Positions 1 through 61,760 of a stretch of 64,000 bases of DNA are shown here, in pieces. Both the position numbers and the translations under genes were made by a program. The notes under the pieces were generated by a model. That model made no database searches and had not been told where the DNA came from. It saw only the letters and a list, made by a program, of their open reading frames with translations. The stretch's first letter is position 1; each line of letters opens with the position of its first letter. This DNA is from an uncultured Ruminococcus sp. (GTDB lineage Bacteria; Bacillota; Clostridia; Oscillospirales; Acutalibacteraceae): assembly GCA_902762375.1 (NCBI GenBank), contig CACWNY010000001.1, positions 1 through 64,000 on the forward strand. Reading direction: 5' to 3'.

Positions 1-88
1 TTTTGAAGATTCTTCGTCGCTTTCGCTCCTCAGAATGACAACAATATATTATTTCAAACAGGCTTTTTTCTTAAGTTGATGACATTGC
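1..88 (-). mobile_element. MITE-like element (8-bp TSD family), partial at window edge
   Basis: This is the end of a copy of the same element seen at 21647-21783 and 61547-61655, in the opposite orientation. It ends at position 88 with GACATTGC, the complement of the terminal inverted repeat GCAATGTC. The following CTATCAGG (89-96) would be its target duplication, but the other end lies outside the window. It sits at the same point in the flanking modular repeat as the 21.6 kb copy. Confidence 0.7.
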
Positions 89-338
89 CTATCAGGGGCT
101 TTGCCCCTGAACCCCACAAACTTTTTGAAAAAAGTTTGACAAAAACTTTCAAGGCTCACTTCGTTCGGAATGATTAGCTAAGTGTCAGCTATGACAATTA
201 AAAGTTTTTTGTCCACTTTTTTTCAAAAAAGTGGGCGGGATTGTTAAGGGCGGCAGCCCTTGACACGGGATTTTAAAGGGCGGTAGCCCTTTAATGGATA
301 AAAATTCAAAACAAAATTTGCCAAAGCAAATTTTGACA
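89..338. repeat. Modular hairpin repeat, copy 1 (inverted dimer)
   Basis: It has a forward arm beginning at S2 (CAGGGGC/GCCCCTG) and S3 (CAAAC-type), then the core with TTCGTTCGGAAT, then a reverse arm with S3 (CCAC-type), two GGGC/GCCC stems and S0 (311-338). The region from 1 to 419 holds only this repeat, the MITE end and the glgC leader. S0 ends in TTGACA (333-338), which resembles a -35 box, but no well-spaced -10 follows. Confidence 0.9.
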
Positions 339-4277: not shown

Positions 4278-4290
4278 GAAAATTTTGTGT

Positions 4291-4543
4291 TTAAGGGCTT
4301 TGCCCTTAAAAATCCCACAAGGGGCTTTGCCCCTTGACCCCACCACTTTTGAAAAAGTGGACAAAACTTTTAATTGTCATAGCTGACACTTAGAGGAACA
4401 ATCCGAACGAAGTGAGCCATAAAAGTTTTTTGTCCACTTTTTTTCAAAAAAGTGGGCGGGGTTAAGGGGCGGCAGCCCCTTAGCAGGATTTTCAAGGGTG
4501 GCAACCCTTGAAACAGGATTTTTAAGGGCGGCAGCCCTTAAAC
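4291..4543. repeat. Modular hairpin repeat, copy 2 (inverted dimer)
   Basis: It has a forward arm S1-S2-S3-tail, a core with ATCCGAACGAAGTGAGCC, and a reverse arm S3-S2 followed by two S1 stems. One S1 stem is AAGGGT/AACCCTT, a compensated C:G to T:A change. It fills the glgA-DUF3592 intergenic space and stops 2 bases before the DUF3592 gene's stop codon on the minus strand. Confidence 0.9.
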
Positions 4544-4968: not shown

Positions 4969-4995
4969 GACATTAACCAATCCTTTCTGACAGGA

Positions 4996-5268
4996 CAAAA
5001 TTTGCTTACGCAAATTTTGTCTGGAATTTTGGGGAGTTTAAGGGCTTTGCCCTTAAAAATCCCACAAGGGGCGTTGCCCCTTGACCCCACAAGCCTTTGA
5101 AAAGGCTTGACCGAAACTTTTAATTGTCATAGTCCGAAGTCGGATAAAGATTTCCGAACAAAGTGAGCCTTGAAAGTTTTTGTCAAACTTTTTTCAAAAA
5201 GTTTGTGGGGTTCAGGGGCAAAGCCCCTGACAGAGGTTCGGGGACAGCGTCCCCGACAGGGCAACCTT
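4996..5268. repeat. Modular hairpin repeat, copy 3 (inverted dimer)
   Basis: It has a complete forward arm S0-S1-S2-S3 (AAGCC-type)-tail, a core variant CCGAACAAAGTGAGCC, then a reverse arm with CAAAC-type S3, a CAGGGGC-type S2 and an extra GGGGAC/GTCCCC stem. Its final TTAA supplies the TAA stop of uppP (5267-5269). Confidence 0.9.
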
Positions 5269-7568: not shown

Positions 7569-7602
7569 GGTATCATCTCCTTAAAACCTTGATAGCCTAT
7601 CT

Positions 7603-7737
7603 CCGAACGAAGTGAGCCGAAAAAGTTTTTGTCAAACTTTTTTCAAAAAGTTTGTGGGGTCAAGGGGCAAAGCCCCTTGTGGGATTTTCAAGGGTGAAAC
7701 CCTTGAAACAGGATTTTTAAGGGCGGTAGCCCTTAAA
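7603..7737 (-). repeat. Modular hairpin repeat, copy 4 (core half plus reverse arm)
   Basis: It begins with CCGAACGAAGTGAGCC, then CAAAC-type S3, S2, a compensated S1 (AAGGGT/ACCCTT) and a standard S1. The terminal TTAA provides the TAA stop of the malic enzyme gene (7733-7735). Confidence 0.88.
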
Positions 7738-8905
7738 CTCGGGCAACACCTGATTTTCTGGCAGCGTCCATTACCGCTTTTGCTACTGTCTGACTGATGC
7801 GTTTGTCCAGTGCGTCAGGTAAGATGTAATCTTCACAAAGTTTATCCTCCGTCACCAGTGAGGCAATCGCATAAGAGGCAGCAATATTCATTTCTTCGTT
7901 GATTTCCTTTGCCCGACAGTCCAAAGCTCCACGAAAAATTCCAGGAAAAGCCAGTACATTGTTAATCTGGTTGGCAAAGTCTGAACGACCTGTACCGACA
8001 ATCCTTGCTCCACCTTTTTTGGCTAAGTCGGGCATAATTTCGGGAACAGGATTAGCCATTGCAAAAACAATCGCATTTTCATTCATGGTCTGAACCATTT
8101 CCTGTGTGAGAATACCTGCCGCCGATACACCGATAAACAAATCTCTGCCCTTTACAGCGTCAGCAAGTGTACCCGTAATTTTTTCACGGTTGGTAATTTT
8201 ACTCATTTCCGCCTTAGCTTCATTCAGACGGGGGTCACCTTCAGTGATAATGCCTTTAGCGTCTACCATGACAATATTCTTTACGCCTAAACGCATTAAA
8301 TGTTTGGCAATGGCAATTCCCGCTGAACCTGCACCGCTGATAACCGCTTTGATTTCGTCCAGTTTTTTGTTGACGATTTTCAACGCATTGATGGTTGCCG
8401 CTGCTACAACAATCGCTGTACCGTGCTGGTCATCGTGGAAAACAGGAATATCACAGATTTCCTTTAATTTTTTCTCAATTTCGAAACATCGGGGAGCGGC
8501 AATATCTTCCAGATTAATTCCCCCGAAACTTCCCGAAATCAGATATACCGTCCGTACAATCTCATCGACATCTTTTGAACGCACACAAAGCGGAAAAGCG
8601 TCCACATCAGCAAAAGATTTGAACAATGCACATTTGCCCTCCATAACAGGCATACCTGCTTCAGGACCTATATCTCCCAGTCCCAGTACCGCTGTGCCGT
8701 CTGTGACAACCGCTACCAGATTTTTTCTTCTGGTAAGTTCGAATGATTTGTCGTAGTCGTTGTGAATGACCATACAGGGTTCAGCTACTCCGGGTGTATA
8801 CGCTACCGCCAAATCGTGCGAATTTTCCAATGGCGGACGAACCGTCACTTCAATTTTACCGTTCCATTCATAATGTTTCTGTAAGGATTCCTCTCTGATA
8901 TCCAT
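7733..8905 (-). CDS. NAD(P)-dependent malic enzyme, short bacterial form
   Basis: The enzyme oxidatively decarboxylates malate to pyruvate, linking C4 acids to central metabolism. The 390 residues correspond to the catalytic plus Rossmann domains without a phosphotransacetylase-like extension. Visible signatures are AVAYTPGVAEPC (near residue 32), the metal/substrate region GDIGPEAGMPVMEGK, and the dinucleotide loop GAGSAGIAIAKHLMRLG (near residue 190). The coenzyme preference cannot be told from this reading. The stop codon comes from repeat copy 4. No operon partner is close, because cysS is 164 bases away across the repeat. Confidence 0.93.
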   Translation of the reverse strand: MDIREESLQKHYEWNGKIEVTVRPPLENSHDLAVAYTPGVAEPCMVIHNDYDKSFELTRRKNLVAVVTDGTAVLGLGDIGPEAGMPVMEGKCALFKSFADVDAFPLCVRSKDVDEIVRTVYLISGSFGGINLEDIAAPRCFEIEKKLKEICDIPVFHDDQHGTAIVVAAATINALKIVNKKLDEIKAVISGAGSAGIAIAKHLMRLGVKNIVMVDAKGIITEGDPRLNEAKAEMSKITNREKITGTLADAVKGRDLFIGVSAAGILTQEMVQTMNENAIVFAMANPVPEIMPDLAKKGGARIVGTGRSDFANQINNVLAFPGIFRGALDCRAKEINEEMNIAASYAIASLVTEDKLCEDYILPDALDKRISQTVAKAVMDAARKSGVARV

Positions 8906-9003
8906 ATGGCAACTTCCTTTCCTGTGTTTTGATTATCAATCCTATATATATTATTACGATTACGGAATTTTGTCAATTCTTTTGCGTGGCAAAGTCAGTT
9001 AAG

Positions 9004-9229
9004 TTTAAGGGCTTCGCCCTTAAAAATCCCATCAGGGGCTTTGCCCCTGAACCCCACGAACTTTTTGAAAAAAGTTCGACAAAAACTTTTAATTGTCAAC
9101 TTTGAGATAACATTCCGAACGCAGTGAGCCATAAAAGTTTTTTGTCCACTTTTTTTCAAAAAAGTGGGCAGGATTTTTAAGGGCGGCAGCCCTTAAATCA
9201 GGGGTTCAAGGACGGAAAGTCCCCGACAG
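9004..9229. repeat. Modular hairpin repeat, copy 5 (inverted dimer)
   Basis: It has a forward arm S1-S2 (CAGGGGC)-S3 (CGAAC-type)-tail, a core variant CCGAACGCAGTGAGCC, then a reverse arm S3 (CCAC)-S1 and an extra GGGG/CCCC-rich end. Apart from this repeat and a small stem-loop, the 393 bases between the malic enzyme and amylase genes hold nothing recognisable. Confidence 0.88.
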
Positions 9230-9249
9230 ACAGTACTTAAAGTAGCAGA

Positions 9250-11455: not shown

Positions 11456-11585
11456 AGCTTGTTTCCTCCTTCTTAAAATTTCTCATTCTCTATTTTATCA
11501 TCTTTTCTTTTATTTTCCTATTGTCTTTTCCGTAAAATATACGACAATGTTTTTGTGCAATATGTCAAAGTCTGCCTTCAGGGAG

Positions 11586-11903
11586 TTTAAGGGCCGTCAG
11601 TCGGGGAGTTCCTCCCCGAACCCCTGATTTAAGGGCTACCGCCCTTAAAAATCCTGCTCAGGGACTTTGCCCCTGAACCCCACCCACTTTTTGAAAAAAG
11701 TGGGTCAAAAACTTTCAAGGCTCACTGCGTTCGGAATGATTAGCTAAGTGTCAGCTATGACAATTAAAAGTTTTTTGTCCACTTTTTTTCAAAAAAGTGG
11801 GCGGGATTTTTAAGGGCGGCAGCCCTTAAAACAGGATTTTAAAGGGCGGTAGCCCTTTAACTCATCAAAATCCAAACAAAATTTGCCAAAGCAAATTTTG
11901 ACA
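11586..11903. repeat. Modular hairpin repeat, copy 6 (longest inverted dimer)
   Basis: It starts with an extra GGGGAG/CTCCCC stem, then a forward S1-S2-S3 arm, the core GGCTCACTGCGTTCGGAATG, and a full reverse arm S3-S1-S1-S0. It occupies nearly all of the space between the amylase promoter region and the end of the LRR gene. Nothing else is recognisable in 11456-11937 apart from the AT-rich amylase upstream region. Confidence 0.9.
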
Positions 11904-11937
11904 ATACTTTTTCGTAAACATTCATTTTTGCAACTGA

Positions 11938-14025
11938 CTACTCATTTGTTACGGTAACGGTACAGATTTGTGTTTTTCCGTTATAAGTTTTGCCTGTGAT
12001 GTTGACCGTTCCTGTATTTTCAGCCATAATTACTCCGCTACCACTTATGGTTGCCACTGACTTATCAGGAGAATTATAAATGACGGTTCTTGCATATTCT
12101 CCTGTATTAAACTGACTTTCCAGATAGAATGTTTCTCCCTGTTTAAGGGTGAGATTGGTCTGATTAAAGGTAAGTGAGGTCGGAGCATTTCTGACGGTAA
12201 CACGGCAAGTTGCTTTTTGACCGTTGTAAGTAGTAATGCTGACAAGTGCTGTACCTATGGATTTTGCCATAACAATTCCGCTGTCTGTAACTGTTGCCAC
12301 TTCGGGGTGGTTTGATGAAAATGTCAGTACCCTTGACGCTTCATCTTTTGCCAGACTGCCCTCAAGATAAAATGTTTCGCCTAAACCCATAATGCTGTTT
12401 TTACGGTTGATGGAAATACTTGTAGGAGCTTTTTTTACGGTAAGACGGCAAGTTGCTTTTTTTCCGTTGTAGGTAGTTGCGGTGATGATGGTAGTTCCTG
12501 TAGATTTGGTTGTGATTACTCCGTTAGAACGAACTGTTGCTACTGATGTATCACTGGAAGTGTAAGTGATGTTACCCATAAATTCACCGTCAGGTACAGT
12601 GGGGATTAGGGTAAATTTTTCTTTTAGTCCTAAAATCAAGGCATTTTTATTGAGGGTTAGTTTACTGGGAGCATTCAGCACATTCACCTGACAAACTGCT
12701 GTCTGACCATCTTCGGTTGTTACGGTAATTCTGGTTCTGCCTGTTTTCTTAGCGGTTACTTTTCCGTTGGCATCTACACTTGCCACCATTACATTACTGC
12801 TTTTCCACTGCAGTTTTGTAGAAACTATGATGGTTGCCTTGAGTAAATCCATCTGTCCTGTTCCCAATGTTATTGCACTTTTATCCAACGATATAATCGA
12901 CTTATAATCATAATGTATCTTTGCTTTATATAATTCTGCATTACTATTATCGTCATTGTTGATATTCATTGATTCCCAATTCTTCTGTGTTCCCGTATAA
13001 TAAACATCTGACAATTTATTGCACCCATGAAACGCATAATCCTGTATATATGTTATACTTGCAGGAATAAAAATATTTTTCAGATTTTTACAGCCCAAAA
13101 ACATACATCTTCCTATAGAACTCATTCTATTAGAAAGACAGATATTCTTTAAATTCACACAACCTTCAAATATCGAATCCTCTCCCTCGTCTACAGTGTT
13201 GGGAATAATCATATCTGTCAGATTTTCACAACAACTAAACGCACCTGCTCCTAAATCAGTAACACTTTCAGGAATTTTATAGGTTGTTTCTTTTTTGCCT
13301 GCAGGATAACACAATAATTCTCTTTTGCCTTGAGTAAATAAAATACCATTTTCCGAAATGTACCATTTATTGTTACTGTCGACCTCTATATTCTGCAAAT
13401 TCTGACAATACAAAAACGGATTTTGTATCCTTTGAACATTTCTTGGAATTTTGACATTGATTAACCCTGTTTCACAAAAAGCACCATATTCTATATCGGT
13501 TATATTATCGGGAATGGTAATGCTTTTCAACTCTGTACAACCTGCAAAAACACTGTTTGACAGTGTCTTTAATCCTTTGGGAATAGTGATTTTATTCAGA
13601 CTTTGACATTCTCCGAAAGCAAGATATTCTATATAGGATATACTGTCGGGCAGGTTGATACTTTTCAAAGCCGTACAGCCAAAAAATGCACCTTCGCCGA
13701 TAACCTGTATACTGTCAGGTAAGCTGACAGAGGTTATCTTGTCATAATCCATAAAGGCAACATTATTTATGCAGACTACAGGCATACCATAAATGTTTGA
13801 CGGTACACTGACTTTTGTGCCTTTACCTGTATAGTCTGTAATGATAACCATATTCTCATAAACCGCATAGGAAAAATCGCCATAAGTATACTCTTCAAAT
13901 GTTTCGTCCATACTTTCCAGAATGTTGGTAGGATAGGCGGTTGTTGTGATTACCGTTGCTGTTATCAGACTATAAGACAGCAGTACCGACAATATCACAG
14001 ATAATAATTTTTTAGAAAATTTCAT
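11938..14025 (-). CDS. Secreted BspA-like leucine-rich-repeat protein with four Big_2 domains
   Basis: A 695-residue exported protein of unknown ligand. A signal peptide covers about residues 1-30. A TYGDFSYAVYENMVIITDYTG strand region then leads into roughly ten LRR_5 repeats of about 23 residues (pattern FxxCxxLxxIxIPxxVxxI). The C-terminal half has four Ig-like Big_2 domains with the hallmark VATVxxxGxxxAKxxGxxxIT. Such proteins are commonly surface adhesins or scaffolds. There is no sortase motif, dockerin or membrane anchor, so release or non-covalent attachment is inferred. It is related to the proteins at 53.6 and 63.1 kb. A perfect 22-bp inverted repeat lies upstream. Confidence 0.9.
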   Translation of the reverse strand: MKFSKKLLSVILSVLLSYSLITATVITTTAYPTNILESMDETFEEYTYGDFSYAVYENMVIITDYTGKGTKVSVPSNIYGMPVVCINNVAFMDYDKITSVSLPDSIQVIGEGAFFGCTALKSINLPDSISYIEYLAFGECQSLNKITIPKGLKTLSNSVFAGCTELKSITIPDNITDIEYGAFCETGLINVKIPRNVQRIQNPFLYCQNLQNIEVDSNNKWYISENGILFTQGKRELLCYPAGKKETTYKIPESVTDLGAGAFSCCENLTDMIIPNTVDEGEDSIFEGCVNLKNICLSNRMSSIGRCMFLGCKNLKNIFIPASITYIQDYAFHGCNKLSDVYYTGTQKNWESMNINNDDNSNAELYKAKIHYDYKSIISLDKSAITLGTGQMDLLKATIIVSTKLQWKSSNVMVASVDANGKVTAKKTGRTRITVTTEDGQTAVCQVNVLNAPSKLTLNKNALILGLKEKFTLIPTVPDGEFMGNITYTSSDTSVATVRSNGVITTKSTGTTIITATTYNGKKATCRLTVKKAPTSISINRKNSIMGLGETFYLEGSLAKDEASRVLTFSSNHPEVATVTDSGIVMAKSIGTALVSITTYNGQKATCRVTVRNAPTSLTFNQTNLTLKQGETFYLESQFNTGEYARTVIYNSPDKSVATISGSGVIMAENTGTVNITGKTYNGKTQICTVTVTNE

Positions 14026-21565: not shown

Positions 21566-21613
21566 GAAATCCAACCTTTCTATAAATATATCGGTAAGGC
21601 TTTTGAGGGGGAG

Positions 21614-21853
21614 TTAAAGGGCTTTGCCCTTTAAAATCCTACAAGGGCAATGTCATCAACTTAAGAAAAAAGCCTTTTAGAAATAATATATTGCTGTCAT
21701 TCTGAGAAGCGAAAGCGACGAAGAATCCTATTAAGATTCCTCACACTGCGTTCGGAATGACAACCTTAAGTTGACGACATTGCCTACAAGGGGCTTTGCC
21801 ACTTGACCCTACAAGCCTTTGAAAAGGCTTGACCGAAACTTTTAATTGTCACC
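21614..21853 (+). repeat. Modular hairpin repeat, copy 10 (forward monomer split by a MITE)
   Basis: S1 (to 21632) is separated from S2-S3 (AAGCC-type)-tail by the 137-bp element at 21647-21783. S2 carries an uncompensated change (CCAC in place of CCCC), so this copy is partly decayed. Confidence 0.88.
21639..21791 (+). mobile_element. MITE-like element with 8-bp target duplication, nested in repeat copy 10
   Basis: The element spans 21647-21783. Its ends are GCAATGTCATCAACTTAAG and the complement of GCAATGTCGTCAACTTAAG, one mismatch in 19. CTACAAGG occurs immediately on both sides (21639-21646 and 21784-21791) as a target duplication. Removing the element and one duplicate restores a normal repeat copy. 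The interior has TGTCATTCTGAG and CGACGAAGAATC segments. There is no coding capacity, so it must have been moved by an enzyme encoded elsewhere. Confidence 0.85.
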
Positions 21854-30293: not shown

Positions 30294-30344
30294 ATAACTT
30301 TCCTATCTTTTTCCACCTGTGCGGTTGGAATGATTTTCTCATGG

Positions 30345-30415
30345 TATAGCTATGACAATTAAAAGTTTCGGTCAAGCCTTTTCAAAGGCTTGTGGGGTCA
30401 AGGGGCAAAGCCCCT
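30345..30415 (-). repeat. Modular hairpin repeat, copy 15 (short reverse copy)
   Basis: Only the tail, AAGCC-type S3 and S2 are present. It ends 2 bases before the stop of the F420-hydrogenase-beta-like gene. The shortest copy seen, it shows that S3-S2-tail can stand alone. Confidence 0.85.
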
Positions 30416-45844: not shown

Positions 45845-46108
45845 AGGGCGGTTAAGGGCGTTGCTCTTAACAATCCTATCAGGGGCTTTGCCCCTGAACC
45901 CCACAAACTTTTTGAAAAAAGTTTGACAAAAACTTTCAAGATTTACTCAAATCCAGATTATTTATCAAAGTGTCAGCTATGACAATTAAAAGTTTTTTGT
46001 CCACTTTTGGGGGAAAAGTGGGCGGGGTTAAGGGGCGGCAGCCCCTTAGCAGGATTTTCAAGGGTGGCAGCCCTTGAAACGGGATTTTTAAGGGCGGTAG
46101 CCCTTAAA
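45845..46108. repeat. Modular hairpin repeat, copy 19 (inverted dimer inside the pot operon)
   Basis: It has a forward S1 (degraded)-S2-S3 (CAAAC) arm, a diverged core that lacks CCGAACGAAGTGAGCC, and a reverse S3-S2-S1-S1 arm. The third stem is AAGGGT/AGCCCTT, a G-U intermediate between the two compensated forms. It lies between potC and potD. Confidence 0.9.
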
Positions 46109-48969: not shown

Positions 48970-50184
48970 ATGGGATTTTTAGACAAAGTTACAGTTGATG
49001 ACCTCAATGTAAAAGGAAAGAAAGTACTTGTCCGTTGTGATTTCAATGTACCGCTCAAAGACGGCGTTATCACCAACGACAACAGAATTACAGCAGCATT
49101 ACCCACAATCAAGAAATTGGTTGATGACGGCGGTAAAGTTATTTTGTGTTCCCATCTTGGCAAGCCGAAGAACGGTGCAGAAGCTAAATTCTCACTTGCC
49201 CCTGTAGCGGTAAGACTGGGTGAATTGCTTGGTAAAGAAGTTGTATTTGCTGATGATGACGAAGTAGTCGGCGAAAACGCAAAGAAAGCCGTTGCTGAAA
49301 TGAAAGACGGCGATGTTGTTTTATTACAGAACACTCGTTTCCGCAAAGAAGAAACCAAAAATATCGAAGCATTCAGTAAAGAACTTGCTTCACTTGCTGA
49401 TGTATTCGTCATGGACGCTTTCGGTTCATCACATAGAGCTCACTGTTCAACAGTAGGTGTTACCGACTATCTGAACGAAACAGCTGTTGGTTATCTCATG
49501 CAGAAAGAAATCAACTATCTTGGCAACGCAGTAGAACAGCCTGTAAGACCTTTTGTTGCTATTCTTGGTGGTGCAAAAGTTGCGGATAAACTCAATGTTA
49601 TCTCCAATCTGCTTGAGAAGTGCGACACACTGATTATCGGTGGTGGTATGGCTTACACATTCCTGAAAGCACAGGGTCTTGAAGTTGGAAACTCTCTTGT
49701 TGACGACAGCAAAATTGACTACTGTAAAGAAATGATGGAAAAAGCAGAAAAACTCGGTAAAAAACTTTTACTTCCTGTTGATACAATGGTAGCTGATTCA
49801 TTCCCTAATCCTATTGACGCTGAAATTACTGTAGAATGTGTAGATGTTACCGCAATTCCCGCTGATAAAGAGGGTCTGGACATCGGCACAAAGACACAGG
49901 AACTCTTTGCGGACGCTGTAAAATCCGCTAAGACAGTTGTCTGGAATGGACCTATGGGTGTATTTGAAAATCCTATTCTGGCAAAGGGAACAATCGCCGT
50001 AGCGAAAGCACTTGCTGAAACAGATGCTACAACCATTATCGGTGGTGGAGATTCTGCAGCGGCTGTTATTCAGCTTGGATTTGCTGACAAGATGAGCCAC
50101 ATTTCTACAGGTGGCGGAGCTTCTCTTGAATATCTTGAAGGCAAAGTACTTCCTGGTATTGCCGCTATTGCTGATAAGAAATAA
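48970..50184 (+). CDS. pgk: Phosphoglycerate kinase
   Basis: The glycolytic enzyme makes ATP from 1,3-bisphosphoglycerate. The 404 residues are usual. The N-terminus [16 protein letters not shown] is the family signature. [16 protein letters not shown] and [12 protein letters not shown] follow, and the nucleotide-binding WNGPMGVFE and [10 protein letters not shown] lie near the C-terminus. GAAAGGAAG precedes the ATG. It heads the run pgk-tpiA-pyrE-gpmI, although a stem-loop and repeat copy 21 separate it from tpiA. No gap or eno gene is in the window. Confidence 0.97.
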
Positions 50185-50198
50185 TCTGGTAAAAAGTC

Positions 50199-50225
50199 AG
50201 GGACGGATATTTTTTGTCCGTCCCT
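50199..50225 (+). terminator. Stem-loop after pgk
   Basis: AGGGACGGA and TCCGTCCCT form a perfect 9-bp stem around a 9-base T-rich loop, 14 bases after the pgk stop. It is followed by TAATT, not a T run, so it may attenuate or stabilise the transcript. Confidence 0.65.
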
Positions 50226-50236
50226 TAATTACAATG

Positions 50237-50412
50237 TGGGGCGTTGCCTTGTGAGGGGCGTTGCCCCTCAACCCCATCAGGGGCGTTGCCCCTGAACCCC
50301 ACGAACTTTTTGAAAAAAGTTCGACAAAAACTTTCAAGGCTCACTTCGTTGCGGGATTTTTAAGGGCGGCAGCCCTTAAATCAGGGGTTCGGGGAGGAAC
50401 TTCCCCGACAGG
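50237..50412. repeat. Modular hairpin repeat, copy 21 (rearranged)
   Basis: It has two successive S2 stems (GAGGGGC/GCCCCTC, then CAGGGGC/GCCCCTG), CGAAC-type S3, a truncated core GGCTCACTTCGTT, a reverse S1 and an extra GGGGAGG/TTCCCC stem. The two adjacent S2 stems differ only by a compensated outer pair. Confidence 0.87.
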
Positions 50413-50445
50413 ATAACCCCTGAACAAGAGAAAGGAATGTTTATT

Positions 50446-53412: not shown

Positions 53413-53553
53413 TGACAATTAAAAGTTTTTGTCCACTTTTTTCAAAAAGTGGGCGGGGTTAAGGGGCGGCAGCCCCTTAGCGGGATTTTAAAGGGCGGCA
53501 GCCCTTTAACGGATAAAAATTTCAAACAAAATTTGCGTAAGCAAATTTTGACA
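53413..53553 (-). repeat. Modular hairpin repeat, copy 22 (complete reverse monomer)
   Basis: It has tail, CCAC-type S3, S2, S1 and S0, all with perfect stems, ending 6 bases before the stop of the large LRR gene. It is one of the best-preserved single arms. Confidence 0.92.
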
Positions 53554-57439: not shown

Positions 57440-57584
57440 TGTCAAAATTTGCATACGCAAATTTTGTTTTAAATTTTTGGGAGTTAAAGGGCTTCGCCCT
57501 TTAAAATCCCATCAGGGGCGTTGCCCCTGAACCCCACGAACTTTTTGAAAAAAGTTCGACAAAAACTTTTAATCGTCATAGCTA
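57440..57584 (+). repeat. Modular hairpin repeat, copy 23 (forward monomer)
   Basis: It has S0 (CATAC loop), S1, S2 (CAGGGGC/GCCCCTG), CGAAC-type S3 and tail TTTTAATCGTCATAGCT. It lies between the divergent LRR and yfhO genes, just upstream of the yfhO promoter. Confidence 0.9.
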
Positions 57585-61538: not shown

Positions 61539-61663
61539 CGAACGAAGCAATGTCGTCAACTTAAGAAAAAAGCCTTTTCAAAATAATATATTGCTGTCAT
61601 TCTGAGGAGCAAAAGCAACGAAGAATCTTCAAAAGATTCCTCATGACGACATTGCCGAACGAA
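61539..61663 (+). mobile_element. MITE-like element with 8-bp target duplication CGAACGAA
   Basis: The 109-bp element spans 61547-61655 and begins GCAATGTCGTCA with its exact complement at the right end. CGAACGAA lies on both sides (61539-61546 and 61656-61663). The target is the core CCGAACGAAGTGAGCC of a modular repeat copy. Compared with the 21.6 kb copy it lacks about 30 bases near the right end. There is no coding capacity. Confidence 0.87.
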
Positions 61664-61760
61664 GTGAGCCTTAAAAGTTTTTGTCAAACTTTTTTCAAAA
61701 AGTTTGTGGGGTCAAGGGGCGAAGCCCCTTGTGGGATTTTTAAGGGCAAAGCCCTTAAAC
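61656..61760 (-). repeat. Modular hairpin repeat, copy 25 (core half plus reverse arm)
   Basis: It starts in the core (CGAACGAAGTGAGCC), with CAAAC-type S3, S2 and S1 and no S0. The MITE insertion at 61547-61655 lies in the core of this copy. The left arm expected beyond the MITE is missing. Confidence 0.88.

Follow-up and report, generated by a model that had tools for sequence, protein, structure and literature searches.

The palindrome at positions 11586-11903 lies in a stretch of 64,000 nucleotides (the window) from a Ruminococcus-like gut bacterium. An earlier, sequence-only reading had described it as two arms facing each other, and this is confirmed by inverted-repeat search and by folding. 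The inverted-repeat search pairs 11623-11660 with 11798-11835 (89% complementary) and 11628-11656 with 11832-11860 (93% complementary), and the folding energy of 11586-11903 is -144.2 kcal/mol, as against -81.7 for shuffled sequence (z -11.7). The arms are built as rows of hairpins that are palindromic in themselves, so single hairpins contribute part of the inverted-repeat signal. Even with this contribution, the order A-B-C-D / D-C-B-A is truly mirrored. Six long palindromic copies of this kind were found in the window. Four of these doublets came from the arm scan (4371, 5121, 9090 and 11716). The arm and doublet scans tolerate few mismatches and so miss degraded copies; the other two, 92-338 and 45853-46108, escaped them and were recognised by reading. 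The features are listed in Table 1.

Table 1. Arms, doublets and MITEs in the window, by position
Feature	Positions	Strand	Remarks
Doublet	92..338	+	93% identical to the 11586-11903 doublet
Doublet	4290..4542	-	Y core at 4403-4418
Doublet	4995..5240	-	Y core at 5154-5169, 1 mismatch
Lone Y arm	7602..7740	+	full doublet at the same place in G002
Doublet	9002..9241	-	Y core at 9115-9130, 1 mismatch; spacing 43
Y arm of the 11586-11903 doublet	11602..11718	-	directed leftward, with hairpins F, A, B, C and the D motif; sequence, inverted repeats, arm scan
Y head (core)	11719..11734	-	CCGAACGCAGTGAGCC on the minus strand, 1 mismatch; core search
Spacer between the two heads	11735..11752	.	D motif to D motif 50 nt; arm scan
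X head	11753..11763	+	AGCTATGACAA, the TAATTGTCA tail on the other strand; sequence
X arm	11764..11860	+	D motif, hairpin C and two A-type hairpins tagged GGGAT/AGGAT
E hairpin, outer X end	11877..11900	.	sequence, E motif
Second MITE, complete	21647..21783	.	duplication CTACAAGG flanking both ends
X monomer	30313..30410	+	left terminal repeat CCACCTGTGCGGTTG of the first MITE
Doublet	45853..46108	+	stop codon on one side, next Shine-Dalgarno site on the other
X monomer with E hairpin	53413..53553	+	
X monomer with E hairpin	57440..57583	-	
Second MITE within a Y core	61547..61655	+	terminal repeat GCAATGTCGTCAACTTAAG; duplication CGAACGAA at 61539-61546 and 61656-61663
Lone Y arm	61656..61759	+	core split off by the second MITE

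The plan of an arm, as read from the copies, begins with a head and the D motif (TTAAAAGTTTTTGTC). Next comes hairpin C (for example, CCACTTTTTTTCAAAAAAGTGG), which is separated by a TGGGGT or GCGGGGT tag from hairpin B (TCAAGGGGC..GCCCCTTG). A GGGAT or AGGAT tag then leads to hairpin A (TTTAAGGGC..GCCCTTAAA), and sometimes an outer hairpin E follows. Two heads are common: Y, which is CCGAACGAAGTGAGCC, and X, which is AGCTATGACAA and whose complement holds TAATTGTCA. A conserved core had been placed at the centre of the palindrome, and its conservation holds. With up to 3 mismatches it has 8 matches in the window against 0.12 expected, and exact matches number 61+64 genome-wide against 0+0 for the reversed pattern. 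The symmetry of the centre does not hold, however, since the core, CCGAACGAAGTGAGCC, heads only one of the two arms. The head of the opposite arm is TAATTGTCA (complement TGACAATTA), which had earlier been taken for a tail.

The stems of the arm hairpins co-vary almost perfectly. At the second outer level of hairpin B, counted over the hairpins with a GGGG(C/T) core, 243 of 249 pairs are Watson-Crick, as against 119 with the 3' side shuffled. The third level of the same hairpins gives 239 of 249 (114 shuffled), and the second level of hairpin C gives 252 of 268 (111 shuffled). The pairing ends sharply at the tag. Stems were counted by script; RNAalifold on a MAFFT alignment skipped hairpin C because its variants are shifted in that alignment. 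Rfam gave no match in the window, the stretch 11500-12000 returning only matches far below the gathering scores.

The arm scan covered 734,246 of the 2,445,555 bases of G000, the genome of the window (the window itself, L112-L131 and L158-L171). It found 286 arms, of which 171 carry X, 85 carry Y and 30 carry other heads. By extrapolation, the whole genome would hold roughly 950 arms and 200 doublets. When heads within 90 nt are counted as a head-to-head pair, there are 61 such pairs, and 53 of them have 49-52 nt between the same motifs. The pairing of heads is strongly uneven: 55 of the 61 join X to Y, three join Y and two join X to another head, one joins two other heads, and X-X and Y-Y pairs number 0. 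Among neighbours within 400 nt, 61 are head-to-head, three tail-to-tail and three tandem. Plasmid and phage collections gave no match for the repeat at blastn sensitivity, one exact arm pattern was absent from viral contigs, and no description of this repeat was found in the open-access literature.

Of the gaps between script-predicted genes, 263 are 120 bases long or longer, and 182 of these contain an arm. Convergent gaps are occupied most often (32/40), followed by tandem (133/182) and divergent ones (17/41), and the median distance from an arm to a stop codon is 58 nt. Such a preference would suit arms that are passive, being spread by homologous recombination or gene conversion and kept as bidirectional terminators or as mRNA-stabilising hairpins. 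The almost perfect pairing of the stems is also in its favour, as is the replacement of whole hairpins between orthologous doublets, which was observed at one locus when G000 was compared with the sister species G002. At other orthologous doublets of these two species, one whole hairpin unit has been lost, and one B hairpin has changed from T-A to G-C in a compensatory manner on both sides. From the few loci compared, it looks as if hairpin units are exchanged as cassettes. Passive spread is nevertheless rather unlikely. Copies stand at sites that are empty in sister species, which conversion alone does not explain, and the heads show no bias with respect to transcription (20 vs 14 of 34 tandem doublets). 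Further, the outer stem levels have G-U in 5 cells and A-C in 4, which is no excess (6 vs 1 at the innermost pair, the cells being few), so that no clear sign of selection at the RNA level is seen. Mobile elements with two hairpins are known from fungal mitochondria, where the hairpins stay paired through compensatory changes and appear at new sites; the likeness is one of description, and they differ in residing in other genomes and in having shorter units.

Single X arms are mostly not broken doublets. For 95 of the 114 X monomers, the upstream sequence matched a MITE left end best; for the other 19, it matched the doublet best. The X heads of monomers are also more uniform (0.841, or 0.874 in those with the left end) than those of doublets (0.742). 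This first MITE, the X monomer, is about 140-230 bp long and has terminal inverted repeats at both ends (YYACCTG(T/A)GCGGTTG; 131 genome matches with at most one mismatch). In the 734 kb there are 23 end-to-end candidates, unfiltered and some of them poor. Their 8-bp flanks match at a mean of 5.48 of 8 positions, against 4.72 when re-paired (maximum 5.30 in 2,000), and flanks matching at 7 or more of the 8 positions occur in 9 of the 23 (re-paired mean 2.8, maximum 9); the duplication signal is modest because the targets are AT-rich. In G002, an empty site for this MITE was found at L119:10920, and the X monomer at 57440-57583 is missing from the G002 sequence, which is collinear up to that point. 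The first MITE also occurs in the sister species G001, G003 and G005. Short tandem runs of AATGCGTAATTCGTAAT lie beside or inside a long form of its left end, upstream of many X monomers (L118:1011, L113:15661).

The X monomer resembles the MITEs of DDE insertion sequences in its terminal inverted repeats, its 8-bp duplication signal, its AT-rich targets, its size and its non-coding nature. It differs from them in carrying, as its cargo, a structured array of hairpins that also makes up the doublet, and no parent insertion sequence was found for it. Probably, a DDE-type transposase acts on it in trans and generates an 8-bp duplication of an AT-rich target. Searches for Y1 and DDE_Tnp_1 genes turned up no transposase with either set of ends, for the MITE or for the doublet; the sequence-only reading had proposed to look for a Y1 or other transposase flanked by the arms. 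The DDE_Tnp_1 loci that were found are not bounded by the ends of the first MITE. Three pairs of such ends 2.4-3.2 kb apart (C2, C52 and C83) were considered as a possible autonomous element and enclose ordinary genes; about 100 of the 131 terminal-repeat places were listed for this inspection, and a pair may have been missed.

Another MITE family is often inserted in the hairpin arrays. It has ends of the type GCAATGTCRTCAACTTAAG (64 end matches genome-wide) and 8-bp duplications. One of its copies accounts for a break exactly at the core, at 61539-61663: the break was caused by the insertion of this second, unrelated MITE together with its 8-bp duplication. The left end of the doublet 92-338 adjoins a remnant of the same family (70-88), and further copies lie at L124:5599-5756 and L129:14719-14919. 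The interior of the second MITE holds a TCATTCCGAACGCAGTGTGAGGAATCT-like stretch and ATTCTTCGTCGCTTTCGCTCCTCAGAATGACA (window 1-40, 21600-21700 and 61560-61640). As the Y core closely resembles the TCATTCCGAACGCAGTGTGAGGAATCT-like stretch, the Y head may derive from the repeat of this MITE.

The observations support a doublet that spreads and amplifies as one unit, because its spacing is nearly fixed, X is paired with Y, and a sister species has its own amplified version. The sequence-only reading had held the dimer to be parental and the monomers to be its deletion products. This stands for the doublet as a unit and for deletion at two loci, and it is not supported for the X monomers. At window position 7602, the lone Y arm of G000 has a doublet as its counterpart in G002, which is a direct case of deletion. 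At L123:~545, an X arm present in G000 is missing in G002, again giving a single copy by deletion. Thus, single Y arms can be broken doublets. Their Y core is slightly less uniform than that of doublets (0.889 vs 0.930), a difference that is not significant (60/1,000 permutations). REPIN singlets are reported (PMC3116915) as less uniform than doublets, which is the reverse of what the X heads show here.

Alternatively, the doublet may have been the original cargo of the MITE, the ends being lost later and the X monomers arising by internal deletion. This is the best rival because of one locus in G003 (L201), where one of the 15 doublets has a MITE-like end on each side and the 8-bp duplication, AATAATTT, is perfect. 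The right terminal repeat also persists on the X side of 7 of the 61 doublets of G000. Of the remainder, 51 have neither end and three have a weak one on the Y side. None of the 61 has both, and no outer terminal repeat or duplication could be defined for the doublet. Moreover, none of the 23 end-to-end MITE candidates contains the Y core, and G001 and G005 carry the MITE with hardly any Y core (1 and 0 matches). That the doublet began as MITE cargo is unlikely. Preference is given to a doublet that is moved or copied through a folded single strand by an enzyme, a tentative choice that is held to be less improbable than either the loss of MITE ends or recombination. In the doublet, a Y-headed and an X-headed hairpin arm stand opposite one another, the short centre between them being almost constant in length, and the whole is probably copied as one.

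Six species of one genus were compared, namely G000 and its sister species G001-G005. With at most 2 mismatches, the Y core has 225 matches in G000, 102 in G002, 66 in G003, one each in G001 and G004, and none in G005. The loci of G002 and G003 were retrieved by means of the Y core, which biases them towards Y arms, and among the matches listed the spacing in G002 is 49-51 nt in 15/15 doublets, whereas in 12/15 doublets of G003 the partner of Y is a different head, in most cases a hairpin, and the spacing is 65-68 nt. The only doublet seen in G001 has the other head and the 65-68 nt spacing, as in G003. These findings support the view that G003 amplified its own version of the doublet with a different partner head. 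The same plan with different heads and spacings across species means that the doublet plan is shared and its centre is species-specific. The doublet 45853-46108 is found in G002 as well, and the corresponding site in G003 is empty. One contig filed under G003 (RUG11803), L048, is 91-94% identical to G000 (L169), against about 75-85% for most other G003 contigs compared, and is possibly contamination or transfer.

A covariance model of one arm gave at least 73 matches each in G000-G003 and G005, and three in G004. For three further genera of the family the counts were 24, 23 and 8; there the hairpins differ and the rows are looser. A related D-C-B layout with other stem sequences was seen in other genera of the family (L177-L183; G022, G004, G040, G049, G016, G013 and G007). 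In the gap at window 50184-50437 and in its orthologues (L143:3390-3710 and L139:2780-3095), which follow the same gene, the hairpin rows of G001 and G005 are different and unrelated, as if this gap attracted hairpin elements.

The two arms of a doublet are less alike than chance would have them. The same type of C stem occurs in both arms of one of the 55 X-Y doublets, as against 13.8 expected, and none of 10,000 shuffles is as low. Whichever side it stands on, the long-stem CCAC type of C is partnered with the GAAC, AAAC or AAC types. Over 48 nt, arm identity is 0.768 within a doublet and 0.827 after re-pairing (0/5,000 re-pairings as low). Alike arms occur in 0/15 doublets of G003 (52/5,000 re-pairings as low) and in 2/15 of G002, the latter not significant alone (1,118/5,000). 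A possible cause is that identical inverted arms would add up to a long palindrome, liable to be cut or deleted by the cell, and that the arms would be kept unlike in this way. In E. coli, expression of SbcCD was lethal without RecA when a 246 bp interrupted palindrome was present (PMC3315005), and this makes the avoidance of identical arms reasonable to suppose. The rule of unlike arms could also be partly a founder effect.

In bacteria, the multiplication of short hairpin repeats is tied mostly to RAYT transposases. The sequence-only reading had invoked a TnpA-REP-like Y1 transposase, and this mechanism is unsupported. No Y1 match was obtained in G001 (100% complete), G003, G004 and G005, the absence in G003 (84% complete) and G005 (90%) being weak for those two alone, and G002 gave a fragment only. 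In G000, one frame-broken IS605-type tnpA and fragments are present. The broken gene, at L031 (G000 C12:31.5 kb), is directly followed by a tnpB-like frame at the contig end. The doublet does share much with REPINs and BIMEs: an inverted pair of hairpin units, a conserved spacer length, a mostly intergenic position with fewer arms in divergent gaps, and a short conserved G-rich tag before the hairpins. Amplification of the doublet as a unit, which has been argued for REPINs (PMC3116915), and the breakage of doublets into singlets are further points of likeness. On the other hand, REPs are defined by a GTAG/GTGG tetranucleotide (PMC3686654); the 5' tetranucleotide of this type is absent here, the tags being GGGGT, GGGAT and AGGAT. 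Here, moreover, an arm consists of several hairpins in a row, the heads of the two partners differ, X singlets vary less than the X arms of doublets and belong to an independent MITE rather than being remnants, and no RAYT or other intact Y1 gene was found. It is, therefore, very improbable that these are REPINs or BIMEs proper, that is, REP doublets moved by RAYT (a Y1 tyrosine transposase). The doublet works like a REPIN in geometry, without membership. It can also be likened, by description, to the stem-loop repeat families of Cozzuto et al. 2008, which (PMC2267715) are intergenic, share a secondary structure and are mostly of unknown function.

Taken together, the intergenic gaps are probably occupied by two linked kinds of non-autonomous mobile DNA, the X-monomer MITE and a separately amplified doublet. 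A further and more doubtful reading makes the doublets swappable sets of hairpin cassettes, which would require unlike arms, exchange hairpins at the G-rich tags between copies scattered over the genome and spread without Y1 through an enzyme of the host or of a transposon that has so far not been connected with repeats of this kind. As part of the same reading, each hairpin would fold locally, the whole could not become a long palindrome, and the related hairpin rows seen elsewhere in the family, in other genera, would represent branches of their own.

The family is very dense and follows a REPIN-like doublet plan, yet no RAYT-type enzyme was found, and sister species differ in the heads of the partner arm. 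With this plan, the species-specific heads and some empty sites, both the mobilising enzyme and the selection against identical arms become testable.
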